A stretch of 64,000 nucleotides of DNA. It comes from Nitrosopumilus sp. (GTDB lineage: Archaea; Thermoproteota; Nitrososphaeria; Nitrososphaerales; Nitrosopumilaceae). Below are positions 8,916 through 30,002 of the stretch, piece by piece. The notes under the pieces are model-generated. The model did no database searches, had not been told where the DNA came from, and saw only the letters and a program-made list of their open reading frames with translations. A program made the position numbers and the translations under genes. How positions within the stretch are numbered: position 1 is the first letter of the stretch; every line of letters starts with the position of its first letter. The DNA is taken from assembly GCA_029862745.1 (NCBI GenBank), contig JAOTWS010000002.1:186001-250000 (forward strand), given 5' to 3'.

Positions 8916-11102
8916 CTACCTGTAATAGGATGCTACTAATTTTTCGCCTAATTTAAGATCTTTTTGTTCTCTGACTTTCTTTACTGCTTCCTCAAAATGT
9001 TTCATAGTTACTTTTGCATCCATGCTATTTTTCTCAATATCCTTGACATCTGGATGTGAATCTAAGAATTCATGAATTACTATGGACACTGCAGTGTTTG
9101 CAATGGATGCTGTATCAGCACCACTCAGACCATCAGTTAATTCAGCAATCTTATCAATATCTACGCGCTGTGGATCACTTTCATCAGTATTAGTTGGTAT
9201 CTTTGCAGCATTAATTTTTAAGATGCTCTTTCTACTTTCTTTATCTGGAAGCGGAATCTGAATAATTTTATCAAATCTTCCTGGTCTTAGTAATGCAGGA
9301 TCAATCATGTCTGCTCTATTTGTTGCAGCTAAAACTATAACACCATGCATATTTTCCATTCCATCTAACTCTGTTAATAATTGGCTGACCACTCTTTCCG
9401 TAACAGCTGTTTCTCCACCTGCCCCTCTGATTGGTGCAATTGAATCAATTTCGTCAAAGAATACAACACATGGAGCTGATTGACGTGCTCTTTTGAAAAT
9501 CTCTCTAATTCCTCTTTCTGATTCACCAACCCATTTTGACAAAAGTTCAGGCCCCCTCACTGATACAAAATTTGCCTCACTTTGTGTTGCAACAGCTTTT
9601 GCAAGTAGTGTTTTTCCTGTACCACTTGGACCATGAAGTAATATACCTCTAGGCATTTTATGCCCTAATTTATCGTACAATCCTGGATATTTCATTGGCC
9701 ATTCAACTGCCTCTTGCAATTCTCGTTTTACTTCTTCTAAACCTCCAACATCTTCCCACTTTACATCTGGATTCTCAATGAAAACTTCTCTCATTCCAGA
9801 TGGAGTTACTTCAATCAAAGCTTTCTGAAAGTCTTCATGGTTAACAATTAGTTTATCTAAAGTTTCAGGGGGAAGTTTTTCTTCTTCCAAATTTAAAACA
9901 GGTAATAATCTTCTCAAACACTTCATTGCAGCTTCTTTACAAAGATATTCCAAGTCAGCACCAACGTATCCATGACTCACTGCTGAGATTTTCTCAATGT
10001 TTACATCATCTGATAATGGCATGTTTCTACTATGAATTGAAAGTATGTCTTTTCTTCCTTTTTTGTCTGGAACTTTAATCTCTATTTCTCTATCAAATCT
10101 TCCGGGTCTTCTAAGTGCAGGATCTATAGCGTTTGGCCTATTTGTTGCAGCAATTACAATTACTTTTCCCCTAGCTTCCAATCCATCCATTAATGATAAC
10201 ATCTGTGATACTACTCGTCTTTCTACTTCGCCTGTTACTTCTTCTCTTTTTGGTGCAATTGAATCAATTTCATCTACGAAAATAATTGATGGAGCTTTTT
10301 CTCGAGCTTCTTTGAAAATTTCTCTTAACCTTGCTTCACTTTCACCATAAAACTTACTCATGATTTCTGGACCAGATATACTGATAAAATGAGCTTGACT
10401 TTCATTTGCAACAGCTTTTGCAAGTAATGTTTTTCCTGTACCTGGTGGTCCATATAGTAAAACACCCTTTGGTGCCTCAATGCCTAACTTTTCAAAAATT
10501 TCTGGATGTCTTAACGGAAGCTCAATCATTTCCCTTACTTTCTTAATTTCATTTGATATTCCTCCAATGTCCTCATAGGTTACTTGTGGAACTCCACGTA
10601 ATGTCTCACCTTTTTCTGCAATGTGGAAGACAGTTTTCTGAGTAACCAATACTGCATCAGCAGATGGTGTTACTCCTATTACTTGAAAAGTTAAACGTCC
10701 ACCAAAATATGGCACCATTACATTGTCTCCTTTAATCAAAGGAACGCTCTCTAAAGCATCTGCAAGATATCTTTCATCGATTGGAGGAATTGCCTCTAAT
10801 GGTGCAACTACTACTTTTTCTGCAGCTACTGCTTTTATTTTTCTAACTGAAATTGTGTCACCAATTGCTATTCCTGAATTATTTCTTCCCAATCCATCAA
10901 TTCTAATAATTCCTTTTCCTTCATCGGATGGATATAGAGGAAGACATTTTGCAACTGTTCTTCGTTTACCCTTAATTTCTATAACATCTCCTGTGGATGC
11001 ATTCAATGTATCCATAGAATCATAGTCGATTCTTGCTACTCCTCTTCCAACATCTCTGGTATATGCTTCAAGAACTTTAAGAGAAAGAGCATTTTGACTC
11101 AT
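8916..11102 (-). CDS. CDC48/VCP-type AAA+ unfoldase
   Basis: Tandem-AAA ATPase of 728 residues. The N domain (1-180) is a double-psi barrel type adaptor-binding region. D1 has Walker A GPPGTGKT near 218 and Walker [14 protein letters not shown]2 has GPSGTGKT near 490, [12 protein letters not shown] and arginine-finger segments (RPGRFD in both). The protein ends in Ser-Tyr-Tyr-Arg, which fits the HbYX pattern by which archaeal ATPases dock to the 20S proteasome, so a role as proteasomal unfoldase is plausible (inference). Transcribed divergently from uL2. Confidence 0.96.
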
Positions 11103-24134: not shown

Positions 24135-25349
24135 ATGCAAATGGATGAATTACAAATAGAAAAAATAACAAATATTCTTACATTACGATATAGTCCCTCT
24201 AAAAATTTCTTTTTGCCTAAAATGAAACCTTCAGATTTTAATTCTAAATTAAATATTGATCATACATCACAAGTTGAATTTCTTCTAAAAAATTCTATAA
24301 CTCAATTCATTAACAAAAAAAACCCAAAAAATATCTGTATAGCTTTAAGCGGTGGAATTGATTCTATAACTGTTTTATCTCTAGTTAAAGAATTATTTCC
24401 AGAATTAATTATTAATGCAATTAGTTTTGGTTTTGATGAAAATGATTATGATGTAGAAAAAGCAAAAGAAATTTCTCAAAAATTTGATATTGGTTTCGAA
24501 TCAGTCATTTTTACTAACTTTATGAATAATTTACCTGAACAAATTTCAATAATTCAAGAACCTAAAATTAATTATTATTGGTATGCTGTAGCAAAAAAAG
24601 CCAAGGAAAAATCTAATTTTTTATTAACAGGGGATGGATCTGATGAAATATTTGGAGGTTATACTTTTAGATATTCAAAATTTCTTGAAATTATGCAAAA
24701 CTCTTTTTCTTGGAAAGAAAGAGTAAAATCATATTTAGAATGTCATAATCGAGATTGGGTACCTGATCAAGAAAAAATATTTGGTAAAAAATTAAATTTC
24801 TCATGGGAAAAAATTTACAAAATTTTTAAACCATATTTTAATAATAAATTAACTCCATTAGAACAAGTTTTTCTTGCAGATTATATGGGGAAACTAATGT
24901 TTGATTGGATGCCTTCTTATTCAAAAATTTATTCTTATCTTGATTTAGAAGGATTTTCACCAATGCTTGATTCTGATTTAATTCAATATTCTAGTTCTAT
25001 TCCAATAGAAAAAAAATTTGACAAAAAAACTAATATGGGAAAATTAATTCTGAGAGAAATTTTAAACAATAAAAATATCTCTCTTGATTCAACCAAAAAA
25101 GGATTCACTCCAAATTTTTCTTCTTTTTGGAATATTTATGGAAAAGAAATAACTTCAAGTTATCTACGTGACGCTAGAATTATTAGAGATAACTGGGTTT
25201 CACAAAACTGGGTAAATTCTGCATTAAAAATTATTGATGAAACAAATGACATCCGTTATATTAATAAATTACTTCATGTAATCTCTTTTGAAATTTGGTA
25301 TAGATTATTTATTACAAAAGAGATGGTTTCAACAGATAAGCTACTTTAA
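24135..25349 (+). CDS. Asparagine synthase-like amidotransferase domain, no glutaminase
   Basis: 404 residues with the PP-loop ATP site ALSGGIDSITVLSL near residue 75 and the synthase signature LLTGDGSDEIFGGYTFRY near 160, plus KKGFTPNF near 320. The N-terminal Cys-dependent glutaminase domain of AsnB is missing, so ammonia must come from elsewhere, or the enzyme joins another nucleophile. Next to glycosyltransferases such proteins may amidate a sugar acid (inference). Strongly AT-rich like the neighbouring glycan genes. Confidence 0.8.
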   Translation: MQMDELQIEKITNILTLRYSPSKNFFLPKMKPSDFNSKLNIDHTSQVEFLLKNSITQFINKKNPKNICIALSGGIDSITVLSLVKELFPELIINAISFGFDENDYDVEKAKEISQKFDIGFESVIFTNFMNNLPEQISIIQEPKINYYWYAVAKKAKEKSNFLLTGDGSDEIFGGYTFRYSKFLEIMQNSFSWKERVKSYLECHNRDWVPDQEKIFGKKLNFSWEKIYKIFKPYFNNKLTPLEQVFLADYMGKLMFDWMPSYSKIYSYLDLEGFSPMLDSDLIQYSSSIPIEKKFDKKTNMGKLILREILNNKNISLDSTKKGFTPNFSSFWNIYGKEITSSYLRDARIIRDNWVSQNWVNSALKIIDETNDIRYINKLLHVISFEIWYRLFITKEMVSTDKLL

Positions 25350-25386: not shown

Positions 25387-26241
25387 TTATGAATATGATT
25401 TCTTTTGGAAATTATAAAAAATATTTGTTTTGAGAAATTTAATAATTAGTTGTTTTTGATAGTCACGAATATCATTTCTTATTTCTTTAGGAAATGAAGA
25501 AAAATATCCACTCTTAGCAGGTTTGTATGTTAAATATTTCCAAAACATATTGAATACACCTTTGTGATGAATTGCTTTATTTTTCAATAATTCCATACAA
25601 CATCTACCTATAACAAAAAGTGGATGATATCCTAATGCTTTCATTCCTCTGCCGAATTCTTCAAAATTATGCCCATGACCCAATTCTTCTCTATGTTCTA
25701 ACAATGCATTCTTGAATACTCGAATTTCATATCCTTGTAATAAGGCTCTGTAAAGTATTTCTGATTCATATCCCATAATTTCATAGTATTTGTCATAATT
25801 TTTGAAAAAGAATGACTGTTTAACCAATCTGCCTCCTCCATGAGGAACTTTTGTTTTAAATGGAATATGATCACCTGAACAAATTACTAATTTTGGATTT
25901 TTTTCAAATTCATTTATTAATTTTTTGACATAGTCATTTTCATAAACTACATCACCTGCGCCAATCATATGAAAATCATAATCTTTTGTTAAACACATAT
26001 TCCATAATGTTGGAATTCTAGAATAATCTCTAGTTTTACTGTCTGTATGAATCACATTAATTAATTCTGGATTTTGTTTTTTATAATTATCCAAAATCTG
26101 ACCTGTTTTATCTGACGAACCGTCATTGACAACACAAATTTTTTTGGGTTTGTGTGATTGATTAATTACACTTTCCATAACATCTGAAATAGAATCTTCA
26201 GAATCTCTAACACAAAAAAAATGATAATATGTTTTTTCCAT
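25387..26241 (-). CDS. Family 2 glycosyltransferase
   Basis: 284 residues with a GT-A start: CVNDGSSDKTGQILDN (nucleotide-binding Asp) near residue 37 and DFHMIGAGDVVYEND near 90 in the place of the DxD site (here GAGD). A helical C-terminus with a weakly hydrophobic part follows. Third gene of a minus-strand unit GT4, deacetylase-like, GT2. The sugar and acceptor cannot be predicted. Confidence 0.85.
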   Translation of the reverse strand: MEKTYYHFFCVRDSEDSISDVMESVINQSHKPKKICVVNDGSSDKTGQILDNYKKQNPELINVIHTDSKTRDYSRIPTLWNMCLTKDYDFHMIGAGDVVYENDYVKKLINEFEKNPKLVICSGDHIPFKTKVPHGGGRLVKQSFFFKNYDKYYEIMGYESEILYRALLQGYEIRVFKNALLEHREELGHGHNFEEFGRGMKALGYHPLFVIGRCCMELLKNKAIHHKGVFNMFWKYLTYKPAKSGYFSSFPKEIRNDIRDYQKQLIIKFLKTNIFYNFQKKSYS

Positions 26242-26298: not shown

Positions 26299-27039
26299 TT
26301 ATAACATTATCTTTTGATAGTATTTTTTTAATAATGCTTTATGATGCATTATTTCCATATCTATTTTTTTTTCCTCATCTTTTTTTAATTCTTTAAATGC
26401 AAGATCTGTTGATTTATAGTCATTAACCCACCAAATAGGATGAGTGAGGATCTGTAATTTTTCATGTTTATTGATATGTTTACACATACATCCTTCTCGC
26501 CAATAACGACCACTATCACTAATGTATTTTGTTTGTTTTAGGATTTCAGGATCTCTTGAATCAATAAACCCTTCATTTTTTAAATTTATAAAAATTTCTC
26601 TTGTTTCTGATGGAACATGCTGTGAAACAGAAAAAATTTTTTTTTGAATTATGAGTTCTAACATTTCAATTTCCTTTTTTATAATATGAATTTCTTCTTT
26701 AGATGATTCTGGAAAAAAATCTGTATCATAGTGTAATCCAATCTCATGTCCCAAATCTGATATTTCTTTGATTATTTTTGTATTTGACTTTGAAAGTGCA
26801 TTGTAATAGCTACTATGTAATAAAATGAAATATGTAGCTCTTAAACCATGTTCCTTTTCCAACTTTGCCATCTTTAACGCATAATCTAATGAAATATCGA
26901 CATCATGACGTAAAATTAAAAATTTTTTATATTGTTTGAGTTTATTATATTCTCCAACAGTACCAATAAAATATTCTTGTTTTAATAAAGTTAAAACTTC
27001 AAAATAATGTTTACAACTGAATTCACAATCCAAATTCAT
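26299..27039 (-). CDS. Polysaccharide deacetylase-like protein, copy A
   Basis: 246 residues. The NodB-like pattern is seen as LILRHDVDISLDYALK near residue 43 (HD-x-D) and LGHEIGLHYDTDFF near 95 (HxxxH), which suits a metal-dependent polysaccharide deacetylase of the WbmS-like type. Residues from about 12 to 210 are identical to copy B (28328-29098) but for one Lys/Asn change; only the first 11 and last 40 residues differ. It lies between GT4 and GT2 on the same strand. Confidence 0.85.
   Translation of the reverse strand: MNLDCEFSCKHYFEVLTLLKQEYFIGTVGEYNKLKQYKKFLILRHDVDISLDYALKMAKLEKEHGLRATYFILLHSSYYNALSKSNTKIIKEISDLGHEIGLHYDTDFFPESSKEEIHIIKKEIEMLELIIQKKIFSVSQHVPSETREIFINLKNEGFIDSRDPEILKQTKYISDSGRYWREGCMCKHINKHEKLQILTHPIWWVNDYKSTDLAFKELKKDEEKKIDMEIMHHKALLKKYYQKIML
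26422..27009 (-). repeat. 588-bp inverted repeat, left arm
   Basis: Reverse-complement identical to 28364-28951 over 588 bases by direct reading, with one visible substitution (a Lys codon AAA here, Asn AAT in the other arm). The arms end sharply inside the two deacetylase-like genes and enclose 1,354 bases with the GT4 gene and the divergent promoter region. Confidence 0.97.
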
Positions 27040-27106
27040 AGTTTGGATATTTTAAATAACTATTAGTATATTAGCATATCAAAGCCAAATTTATTATAAA
27101 AATAAG

Positions 27107-28195
27107 TTATGAAATTTTATTTACATTTCCTCCATCGATAATTTTTTTATAAATTGAAATACTTTTGAAAATAATGCTTTTTGGAGAATGATGCTTAACT
27201 ACCCATTCTCTTCCTCTTTTCCCTATATTTTTTCTGAATTCTTTATCTTTTAAAACCTGTAAATTCTTCAAAATATCTTTGTGATTTTTGCAATGCAATA
27301 CTGGTGGATCTTCATCATGTAAATTTTCATAGATATCTGGAGGGCAATTTACCAAAAGTGGTTTACCACATGCTAATGATTCACAACCAATACCTCCCAA
27401 TCCAGATAAAATAAATTGATCAGCTATTATGTCAGCATGGATATATTGCCATCTTAATTCTTCATAATTTAAAGGGCCTTTGATGAATTTAACATTATTT
27501 TTTAATCTCAATCTTTCAACAAGCCTATGTGTATTTTCTGAATCAACACCTCTATCAATAATTGTCAAAATAGAATCCGGTGAATTTTTTATAAATTCTG
27601 CAAAAGCTTCAATTAAAATATTATTTCCCTTAAATTTAAAATTAAGATTTGTAGGATGAAAAATTGTCAAAGTTGAGTTGTTATTCAAATTTGAATCATC
27701 TGGTTTAAAATAATCTGTATCCCACATGATTGGAACAAAAATACCTGTATGAATATTTAATTTTTGTAATAAAACCTTGTCTGGTGGCGTAGTGAAAAAT
27801 ATTGTTTTAGGTTTTCTTAGTGCTCTTTTCATTAATATGCCTCTAAGTGAATTAGAAAATGCTATTTCACTTAGGTCGCTTCCTACAATTTGAGGAACAT
27901 ACTTTTTTCTTGAAATATATGCAAAAATTGTAAAATCATATTGAGATTGTATTAGATCATATTTTTTATCCTGCATAATCTTTAGAATTCTTCTTTTCCA
28001 ACCTGATTTACCTTGCTGATAAAATTTTATCCAATCAGGATATTTCCCGTTCAAACTAGAATCAGTTTTTAATGGATCATACACACTAGGTGGATTTGAC
28101 TCCATTAGCAAATCTGCAGAGATACCTATTTTTTGTAAATACTTACAATTTAGATAACCTACATTAGCAATATTCCCTGCAAATAAAATTTTCAT
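27107..28195 (-). CDS. GT4-type glycosyltransferase inside the inverted repeat
   Basis: 362 residues with a GT-B layout: N-terminal Rossmann start (KILFAGNIANVGYLNCKYL) and a C-terminal donor-binding motif LSGLGGIGCESLACGKPLLV near residue 265. It is the first gene of the minus-strand unit and is flanked on both sides by the 588-bp repeat arms. Inversion would place it on the plus strand ahead of copy B and the LpxD-like gene. Confidence 0.87.
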   Translation of the reverse strand: MKILFAGNIANVGYLNCKYLQKIGISADLLMESNPPSVYDPLKTDSSLNGKYPDWIKFYQQGKSGWKRRILKIMQDKKYDLIQSQYDFTIFAYISRKKYVPQIVGSDLSEIAFSNSLRGILMKRALRKPKTIFFTTPPDKVLLQKLNIHTGIFVPIMWDTDYFKPDDSNLNNNSTLTIFHPTNLNFKFKGNNILIEAFAEFIKNSPDSILTIIDRGVDSENTHRLVERLRLKNNVKFIKGPLNYEELRWQYIHADIIADQFILSGLGGIGCESLACGKPLLVNCPPDIYENLHDEDPPVLHCKNHKDILKNLQVLKDKEFRKNIGKRGREWVVKHHSPKSIIFKSISIYKKIIDGGNVNKIS

Positions 28196-28327
28196 ACTTT
28201 TTTAAGCTATCAATTTAAATTTAAATCAGTCATTATCTTAACTTTTGTTAAAAATAAATAATTTTATTACTAGTTTTTTGTAATGCATTTAAAATATAAC
28301 TAAAATTAAAATTTAATAGTGAAAAAA

Positions 28328-29098
28328 ATGGAAATATTAAAAAATTGTAGTTTTTCCTTAGATCATTATTTTGAAGTTTTAACTTTATTAAAACAAGAAT
28401 ATTTTATTGGTACTGTTGGAGAATATAATAAACTCAAACAATATAAAAATTTTTTAATTTTACGTCATGATGTCGATATTTCATTAGATTATGCGTTAAA
28501 GATGGCAAAGTTGGAAAAGGAACATGGTTTAAGAGCTACATATTTCATTTTATTACATAGTAGCTATTACAATGCACTTTCAAAGTCAAATACAAAAATA
28601 ATCAAAGAAATATCAGATTTGGGACATGAGATTGGATTACACTATGATACAGATTTTTTTCCAGAATCATCTAAAGAAGAAATTCATATTATAAAAAAGG
28701 AAATTGAAATGTTAGAACTCATAATTCAAAAAAAAATTTTTTCTGTTTCACAGCATGTTCCATCAGAAACAAGAGAAATTTTTATAAATTTAAAAAATGA
28801 AGGGTTTATTGATTCAAGAGATCCTGAAATCCTAAAACAAACAAAATACATTAGTGATAGTGGTCGTTATTGGCGAGAAGGATGTATGTGTAAACATATC
28901 AATAAACATGAAAAATTACAGATCCTCACTCATCCTATTTGGTGGGTTAATAAATTTGATACACGTAAAGATGTATTATTAGAATTTGAAAAAAATGAGA
29001 TAGAAAAAATTGATTTAAAAATTAATGAATATAAAGAAATGGTTAATAGATTATTAATTAAATTAAAAGCACCCAGTGATGAATTTGAAAAAATGTGA
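28328..29098 (+). CDS. Polysaccharide deacetylase-like protein, copy B
   Basis: Paralogue of copy A with the same HDVD and HEIGLH motifs; unique N-terminus (MEILKNCSFSLD) and C-terminus. ATG at 28328 is preferred to a GTG at 28319: it matches the copy A length, and a TATA-like TTAAAATATAAC ends about 28 bases upstream. It overlaps the LpxD-like gene by 23 bases, so the two are co-transcribed. The near-zero divergence from copy A points to recent duplication or continuing gene conversion. Confidence 0.85.
   Translation: MEILKNCSFSLDHYFEVLTLLKQEYFIGTVGEYNKLKQYKNFLILRHDVDISLDYALKMAKLEKEHGLRATYFILLHSSYYNALSKSNTKIIKEISDLGHEIGLHYDTDFFPESSKEEIHIIKKEIEMLELIIQKKIFSVSQHVPSETREIFINLKNEGFIDSRDPEILKQTKYISDSGRYWREGCMCKHINKHEKLQILTHPIWWVNKFDTRKDVLLEFEKNEIEKIDLKINEYKEMVNRLLIKLKAPSDEFEKM
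28364..28951 (+). repeat. 588-bp inverted repeat, right arm
   Basis: Partner of 26422-27009. The common stretch starts at CATTATTTTGAAG and ends at GGTGGGTTAAT; beyond both points the flanks are unrelated. The sharp edges inside coding sequence mean that recombination would yield two full-length chimeric deacetylase-like genes. Confidence 0.97.
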
Positions 29099-30002
29099 AA
29101 TCACAGTTTCTCAAATAGTATCTTTTTTAGGAAATAATAAAAAATTAAAAATTTTAAATCCAAAAGAAAAAATTAAAAATTTTGAATCAATCATAAATGC
29201 AAAAAAATCATATATGACCTTTTGTTCTATATTAGAAGAAAAAGGTATAAAATTAATTACTAATTCAAAAGCAACTTTGATTATTTGTCATGAAAGTTTG
29301 GCAAATCAGGATTCAAATTTAAAATCTAATATTATCTATGTAAAAAACCCAAGATTAGATTTTATTAAATGTCTTAAGAAATTTTTTAATGATGAACAAA
29401 TTATGAAGGGTATTCATTCAACTGCGATTTTGAAGACAAAAGATATTGGAAAGAATGTTTACATTGGACCATATGTTCAAGTTGGAAAAAATGTTTCAAT
29501 AGGTGCTAATACCATTATCTATGGAAATGTTGTAATTTATGATAATGTAATAATTGGTAAAAATGTCATAATTGATTCAAATACAGTACTTGGAACAGAT
29601 GGATTTGGTTTTGAAAGGAATAAATTAAAAAAATTAGAAAAATTCCCTCATTTTGGAGGAATAGTAATTGGCAATGATGTAGAAATTGGTTCAAATGTTT
29701 CAATAGATCGAGGAACAATAGATGATACTATAATAGGAGCTGGAAGTAAGATTGACAATCTTGTTCATATTGCACATAATGTTAAGATTGGAAAGAATTG
29801 TTTAATTATAGCAAATTCCTTAATTGCAGGAAGTTGCATTCTCGAAGATAATGTTCACATTGCAATGTCTGCAACTATTAGAGAAGGAACAAAAATTGGC
29901 AAAAATGCCTTTGTTGGAATGGGTTCTGTTGTAACAAAGAATGTTCCGCCAAATCAAACTGTTTATGGAAATCCTGCACGTTCCATCAACTTTATAAAAT
30001 AA
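29076..30002 (+). CDS. LpxD-like hexapeptide acyltransferase
   Basis: 308 residues. An N-terminal alpha/beta domain (to about 105) is followed by a left-handed beta-helix of hexapeptide repeats (IGKNVYIGPYVQVGKN..., IGANTIIYGNVVIYDN) and the LpxD-like sequence VLGTDGFGFERN and NLVHIAHNVKIGKN, with the catalytic-type His. Bacterial LpxD N-acylates UDP-3-acyl-glucosamine for lipid A; an archaeon has no lipid A, so here the enzyme more likely N-acylates an amino sugar of a surface glycan (inference). Confidence 0.85.
   Translation: MMNLKKCEITVSQIVSFLGNNKKLKILNPKEKIKNFESIINAKKSYMTFCSILEEKGIKLITNSKATLIICHESLANQDSNLKSNIIYVKNPRLDFIKCLKKFFNDEQIMKGIHSTAILKTKDIGKNVYIGPYVQVGKNVSIGANTIIYGNVVIYDNVIIGKNVIIDSNTVLGTDGFGFERNKLKKLEKFPHFGGIVIGNDVEIGSNVSIDRGTIDDTIIGAGSKIDNLVHIAHNVKIGKNCLIIANSLIAGSCILEDNVHIAMSATIREGTKIGKNAFVGMGSVVTKNVPPNQTVYGNPARSINFIK

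Follow-up and report, generated by a model that had tools for sequence, protein, structure and literature searches.

In Campylobacter fetus, RecA-dependent inversion at the sap locus occurs between oppositely oriented homologous surface-protein genes that surround a promoter segment, and the inversion picks which gene gets the promoter. The locus that we describe here differs from sap in that every one of its genes retains upstream DNA in both states. The haloarchaeal virus phiCh1 inverts tail-fibre genes by means of a recombinase that is encoded in the invertible segment, and the tail-fibre proteins are changed by the inversion (PMC4284463). Our locus is like that of phiCh1 in that a segment able to invert lies between two genes of opposite orientation and its inversion would swap the ends of those genes, but this segment is without a recombinase and the exchanged tips are about 10 residues long. 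In Thermococcus kodakarensis, homologous recombination between the integrated TKV2 and TKV3 produces an inversion that is carried by part of a natural population (PMC8371274). There, as would be the case here, archaeal DNA inverts via homologous recombination between related sequences that face opposite ways; however, the T. kodakarensis event is a large inversion of chromosomal DNA lying between integrated elements, whereas ours would involve a gene segment of 1.35 kb. A further parallel is ectopic gene conversion between inverted paralogs, which has in common with our locus diverged ends, a near-identical middle and abrupt edges, and which needs no recombinase. Our locus departs from ordinary ectopic conversion in that the pair encloses a glycosyltransferase (GT4) gene, so that a crossover would invert a transcription unit; the conversion event itself is one that we infer. 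Genomic islands are mentioned in relation to S-layer glycosylation in recent glycoproteomic work on ammonia-oxidising archaea (PMC12153357). Open-access titles and abstracts on phase variation, inversion and gene conversion in Nitrosopumilus and Thaumarchaeota described no switch of the kind considered below.

The window, the whole 64-kb stretch of DNA that was analysed, had been singled out in an initial annotation for two deacetylase-like genes (here copies A and B) in opposite orientation that enclose a GT4 gene and share a near-identical inverted repeat of 588 bases with one mismatch. The open reading frames confirm this arrangement, and recomputation returned the same repeat coordinates, with 587 of 588 positions identical between the reverse complement of one arm and the other (Table 1). 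The arms are the only inverted repeat of at least 60 bp within the window, and no third copy of the deacetylase repeat was found in the genome, a 17-contig draft in which the pair lies on a 257-kb contig. Elsewhere in the window, positions 9425-10507 hold direct repeats of 72-74% identity inside one open reading frame that reads as a CDC48-type two-domain AAA ATPase; these are ordinary.

Table 1. Features of the inverted-repeat locus and its immediate neighbours, in window positions
Feature	Position	Strand	Evidence or remark
GT2 glycosyltransferase gene, downstream of copy A	25387-26241	-	Pfam PF00535, 3.8e-14
Copy A, extra CE4/NodB-like deacetylase-like gene, between GT4 (upstream) and GT2 (downstream)	26299-27039	-	ORF; AlphaFold model of the family
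C-terminal end of copy A, diverged from but homologous to that of copy B	26299-26421	-	60% nt identity over 26322-26421
Left arm, middle of copy A	26422-27009	-	587/588 identity to 28364-28951 reversed
Enclosed segment, 1354 bp (GT4, divergent promoter region, N-terminal tips of both copies)	27010-28363	.	invertible by crossover between arms
GT4 glycosyltransferase gene, between arms	27107-28195	-	Pfam PF00534, 1.2e-10
Copy B, CE4/NodB-like deacetylase-like gene, overlaps LpxD-like gene	about 28319-29098 (start GTG 28319 or ATG 28328)	+	ORF; overlap with LpxD conserved in DT_77 and CoA_2_bin.4
Right arm, middle of copy B	28364-28951	+	587/588 identity to left arm
LpxD-like hexapeptide acyltransferase gene, downstream of copy B	29076-30002	+	NCBIfam NF002060, 1e-69 (over cut-off); Hexapep PF00132

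Neither copy A nor copy B gave a Pfam match at the threshold used. The AlphaFold model of the deacetylase family (pLDDT 91.8) found its best PDB matches among CE4 carbohydrate esterases, peptidoglycan and chitin deacetylases, with E values down to 2.2e-6 and TM-scores of only about 0.45. The residues of the HDxD and HxxxxH metal motifs (H47, D48, D50, H100 and H105) are invariant in 29 family sequences. Model and motifs together uphold the deacetylase-like identity first proposed for both genes, and the two copies are predicted CE4/NodB-like deacetylases.

The surrounding genes encode GT2, GT4, the LpxD-like acyltransferase, a formyltransferase, an epimerase, a DegT aminotransferase and an Asn-synthase-like amidotransferase. 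The locus is an amino-sugar glycan island beside an apparent AglB/STT3 gene, so read from its sequence and a WWDYG motif. In the asparagine-synthase-like protein (24135-25349), Pfam detects the synthase domain and no glutaminase domain; the product probably acts as an amidotransferase on a sugar acid. The LpxD-like protein is a full-length match to NF002060 in an archaeon, an organism that should be without lipid A. It is probably an N-acyltransferase acting on another amino sugar. The overlap of the deacetylase and LpxD genes, seen in the window and in both Nitrosopumilus DT_77 and Nitrosarchaeum CoA_2_bin.4, suggests translational coupling.

What made the two arms so alike? Their sole mismatch (26923/28450) is an A6T5 run against A5T6, which gives Lys against Asn. 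The near-identical codons hold one non-synonymous and no synonymous differences, a result that purifying selection cannot give and that points to recent conversion instead. Both arm edges are abrupt, and they fall in the family-conserved motifs HYFEV and LTHPIWW. Just past the arms on the C-terminal side, the two copies continue in register with 60 of 100 nucleotides identical (binomial P about 3e-7 against 35% expected by chance; unrelated neighbouring sequence gave 30/99), and their protein tails share 10 of 41 amino acids. Because these flanks are homologous yet only 60% alike, the copies were most likely older paralogs before they were homogenised. On the N-terminal side the tips are very short; their DNA identity is at background (11/30), and they are alike only as protein. 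With identity dropping from 587/588 to 60/100 at the C-terminal edge, the pair therefore has the near-identical inner tract, the abrupt edges and the diverged homologous flanks of a conversion tract, in agreement with the initial suggestion of recent exchange between the copies.

We consider it probable that the locus records a recent ectopic gene conversion between older inverted paralogs, in a geometry that is competent for inversion. Two older paralogous deacetylase genes would have flanked GT4 as an inverted pair within a hypervariable glycan island. Recombination between their homologous sequences, presumably dependent on RadA, would lately have copied the middle of one paralog onto the other and left 588 bp near-identical between diverged ends. 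The conserved HYFEV and LTHPIWW motifs at the edges are where diverged paralogs would pair best. We infer that conversion is the source of the arm identity; since it explains that identity, no switching is needed. The donor was most likely copy B and the recipient copy A. The tail of copy B resembles that of the CoA_2_bin.4 deacetylase (z 9.3), and its overlap with LpxD is common to the DT_77 and CoA_2_bin.4 homologs, which argues that copy B is the long-standing, orthologous gene and that copy A was probably the recipient. In its body, the deacetylase has about 50% identity with each of three relatives, and this sequence does not settle the direction of copying. Donor assignment from the N-terminal tips was dropped, as 10-15 residues do not discriminate. 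Among the genomes compared, no relative carries both copies.

Could copy A have arisen without any older paralog, as a recent partial inverted duplication in which template switching copied about 588 bp of copy B and other ends were joined to them? Near-identity and abrupt edges would be equally expected from such an event, and only one deacetylase copy is present in relatives that have a clear homolog. The short tail of copy A is also weakly similar to the tails of relatives: copy B apart, its family similarity is weak, and an HMM of the other tails did not separate it from shuffles. However, the C-terminal flank of copy A is in register with that of copy B at the identity given above, and its N-terminal tip fits the family, with 10 of 15 residues shared with Thaumarchaeota REEA14. 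The in-register flank and the family-like tip make it probable that copy A was a full paralog beforehand, and we regard a partial duplication as unlikely.

The 1.35-kb segment could invert through ordinary homologous recombination between the arms. When 27010-28363 was inverted in silico, all open reading frames stayed open: 26299-27054 on the minus strand, and GT4 at 27178-28266 and 28334-29098 on the plus strand, which then reads GT4-copy B-LpxD. Each N-terminal tip keeps its own upstream DNA. The inverted gene products are those that the initial annotation had predicted, all intact, and the locus has, like an inverton, inverted repeats around a segment whose flip leaves intact genes. Since every gene is intact and has upstream DNA in both orientations, a flip would be expected to alter linkage, and perhaps expression level, more than to switch any gene on or off. 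A bacterial promoter and terminator scan gave chance-level results only; its models are bacterial and uninformative for an archaeon.

The window inverted in silico has the gene order of DT_77, whose copy of this island carries GT4-deacetylase-LpxD, with a single deacetylase, flanked by AglB on one side and by dehydrogenase/eIF2B-like genes on the other. In REEA14 the GT4 gene lies directly upstream of LpxD and is co-directional with it, and the deacetylase is on the other strand. CoA_2_bin.4 has deacetylase-LpxD-GT2, without such a GT4 alongside. The GT4 gene of the window is thus reversed relative to both informative relatives, DT_77 and REEA14, and their co-directional GT4 and LpxD make a past inversion plausible. 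However, these relatives are distant, with GT4 proteins 42-49% identical to that of the window; the GT4 tree gives poor resolution within the clade to which all three belong; and gene order in the island is very plastic and differs among the genomes compared. On such sequence comparisons, a past inversion of the segment may or may not have happened, with the chances roughly balanced. Independent gene shuffling could have produced the difference in GT4 orientation. The opposite orientation in the relatives fits the flip first envisaged, and at their distance it is suggestive only. A single-sequence search of genome and viral contigs for the deacetylase found no close relatives and no viral carriers; a separate search gave one weak phage record.

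The initial annotation went further and proposed a DNA inversion switch in use, that is, active phase variation in which arm recombination flips GT4 between the GT2 and LpxD gene sets and so varies the surface glycan. This proposal would be suited by long inverted arms of near-identical sequence that bracket a segment with promoters inside a glycan island, and by the opposite relative orientation of GT4 in relatives. However, the assembly holds one orientation only (it is a draft, and the single assembled genome of the species). Comparable arms were absent from the loci compared: no near-identical inverted pair was found in 13 other islands, some of them covered only in part by the stretches searched, and no such pair of deacetylases was found in some 90 loci that hold a homologous deacetylase gene. 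Across the whole genome, the tyrosine recombinase family PF00589 gave nothing over the cut-off and two weak partial matches on other contigs, and the serine recombinase family PF00239 gave no match. A site-specific recombinase route was therefore rejected, since no intact integrase or resolvase candidate was found in the genome, and homologous recombination is the likely route for any inversion. Finally, with all genes intact and provided with upstream DNA either way, a small change in output is expected. On this evidence active phase variation is decidedly improbable. We conclude that a selected, reversible switch at this locus is unlikely, and the claim of a switch in use is not sustained.

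Two other inverted pairs were seen during these searches. In the counterpart of this island in another genome of the genus (G011:C77), a 1.14-kb inverted paralog pair of 71% identity occupies about 153470-154595 and 155839-156952 (L224/L225). That pair is the closest approach to such arms among the 13 islands, but it is old and has diverged too far to act as a switch now. An inverted repeat of 184 bp without mismatch lies near a Planococcus contig end (L112, 13153-13336 and 13774-13957).

It is very improbable indeed that the locus is an assembly artefact, with moderately similar copies collapsed to one consensus, the enclosed segment oriented arbitrarily, or both: in a draft such as this, with arms longer than short reads and an enclosed unique segment whose orientation is hard to fix, short-read assembly could over-homogenise the arms or guess the orientation, but one contig spans both arms, and the two copies have distinct flanks, intact frames and one preserved difference.

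Recent conversion between paralogs remains our reading, and overall we judge this to be an unusual locus with an ordinary mechanism. If gene conversion alone has acted, the locus cleanly illustrates how paralogs become homogenised within an archaeal glycan island that changes fast. If flipping of the segment does occur, ammonia-oxidising archaea would have a recombination-based means of surface variation, with a bearing on virus escape. A reversible move of GT4 between two operons by homologous recombination, if true, would be the first such phase-variable locus in ammonia-oxidising archaea in the literature searched.
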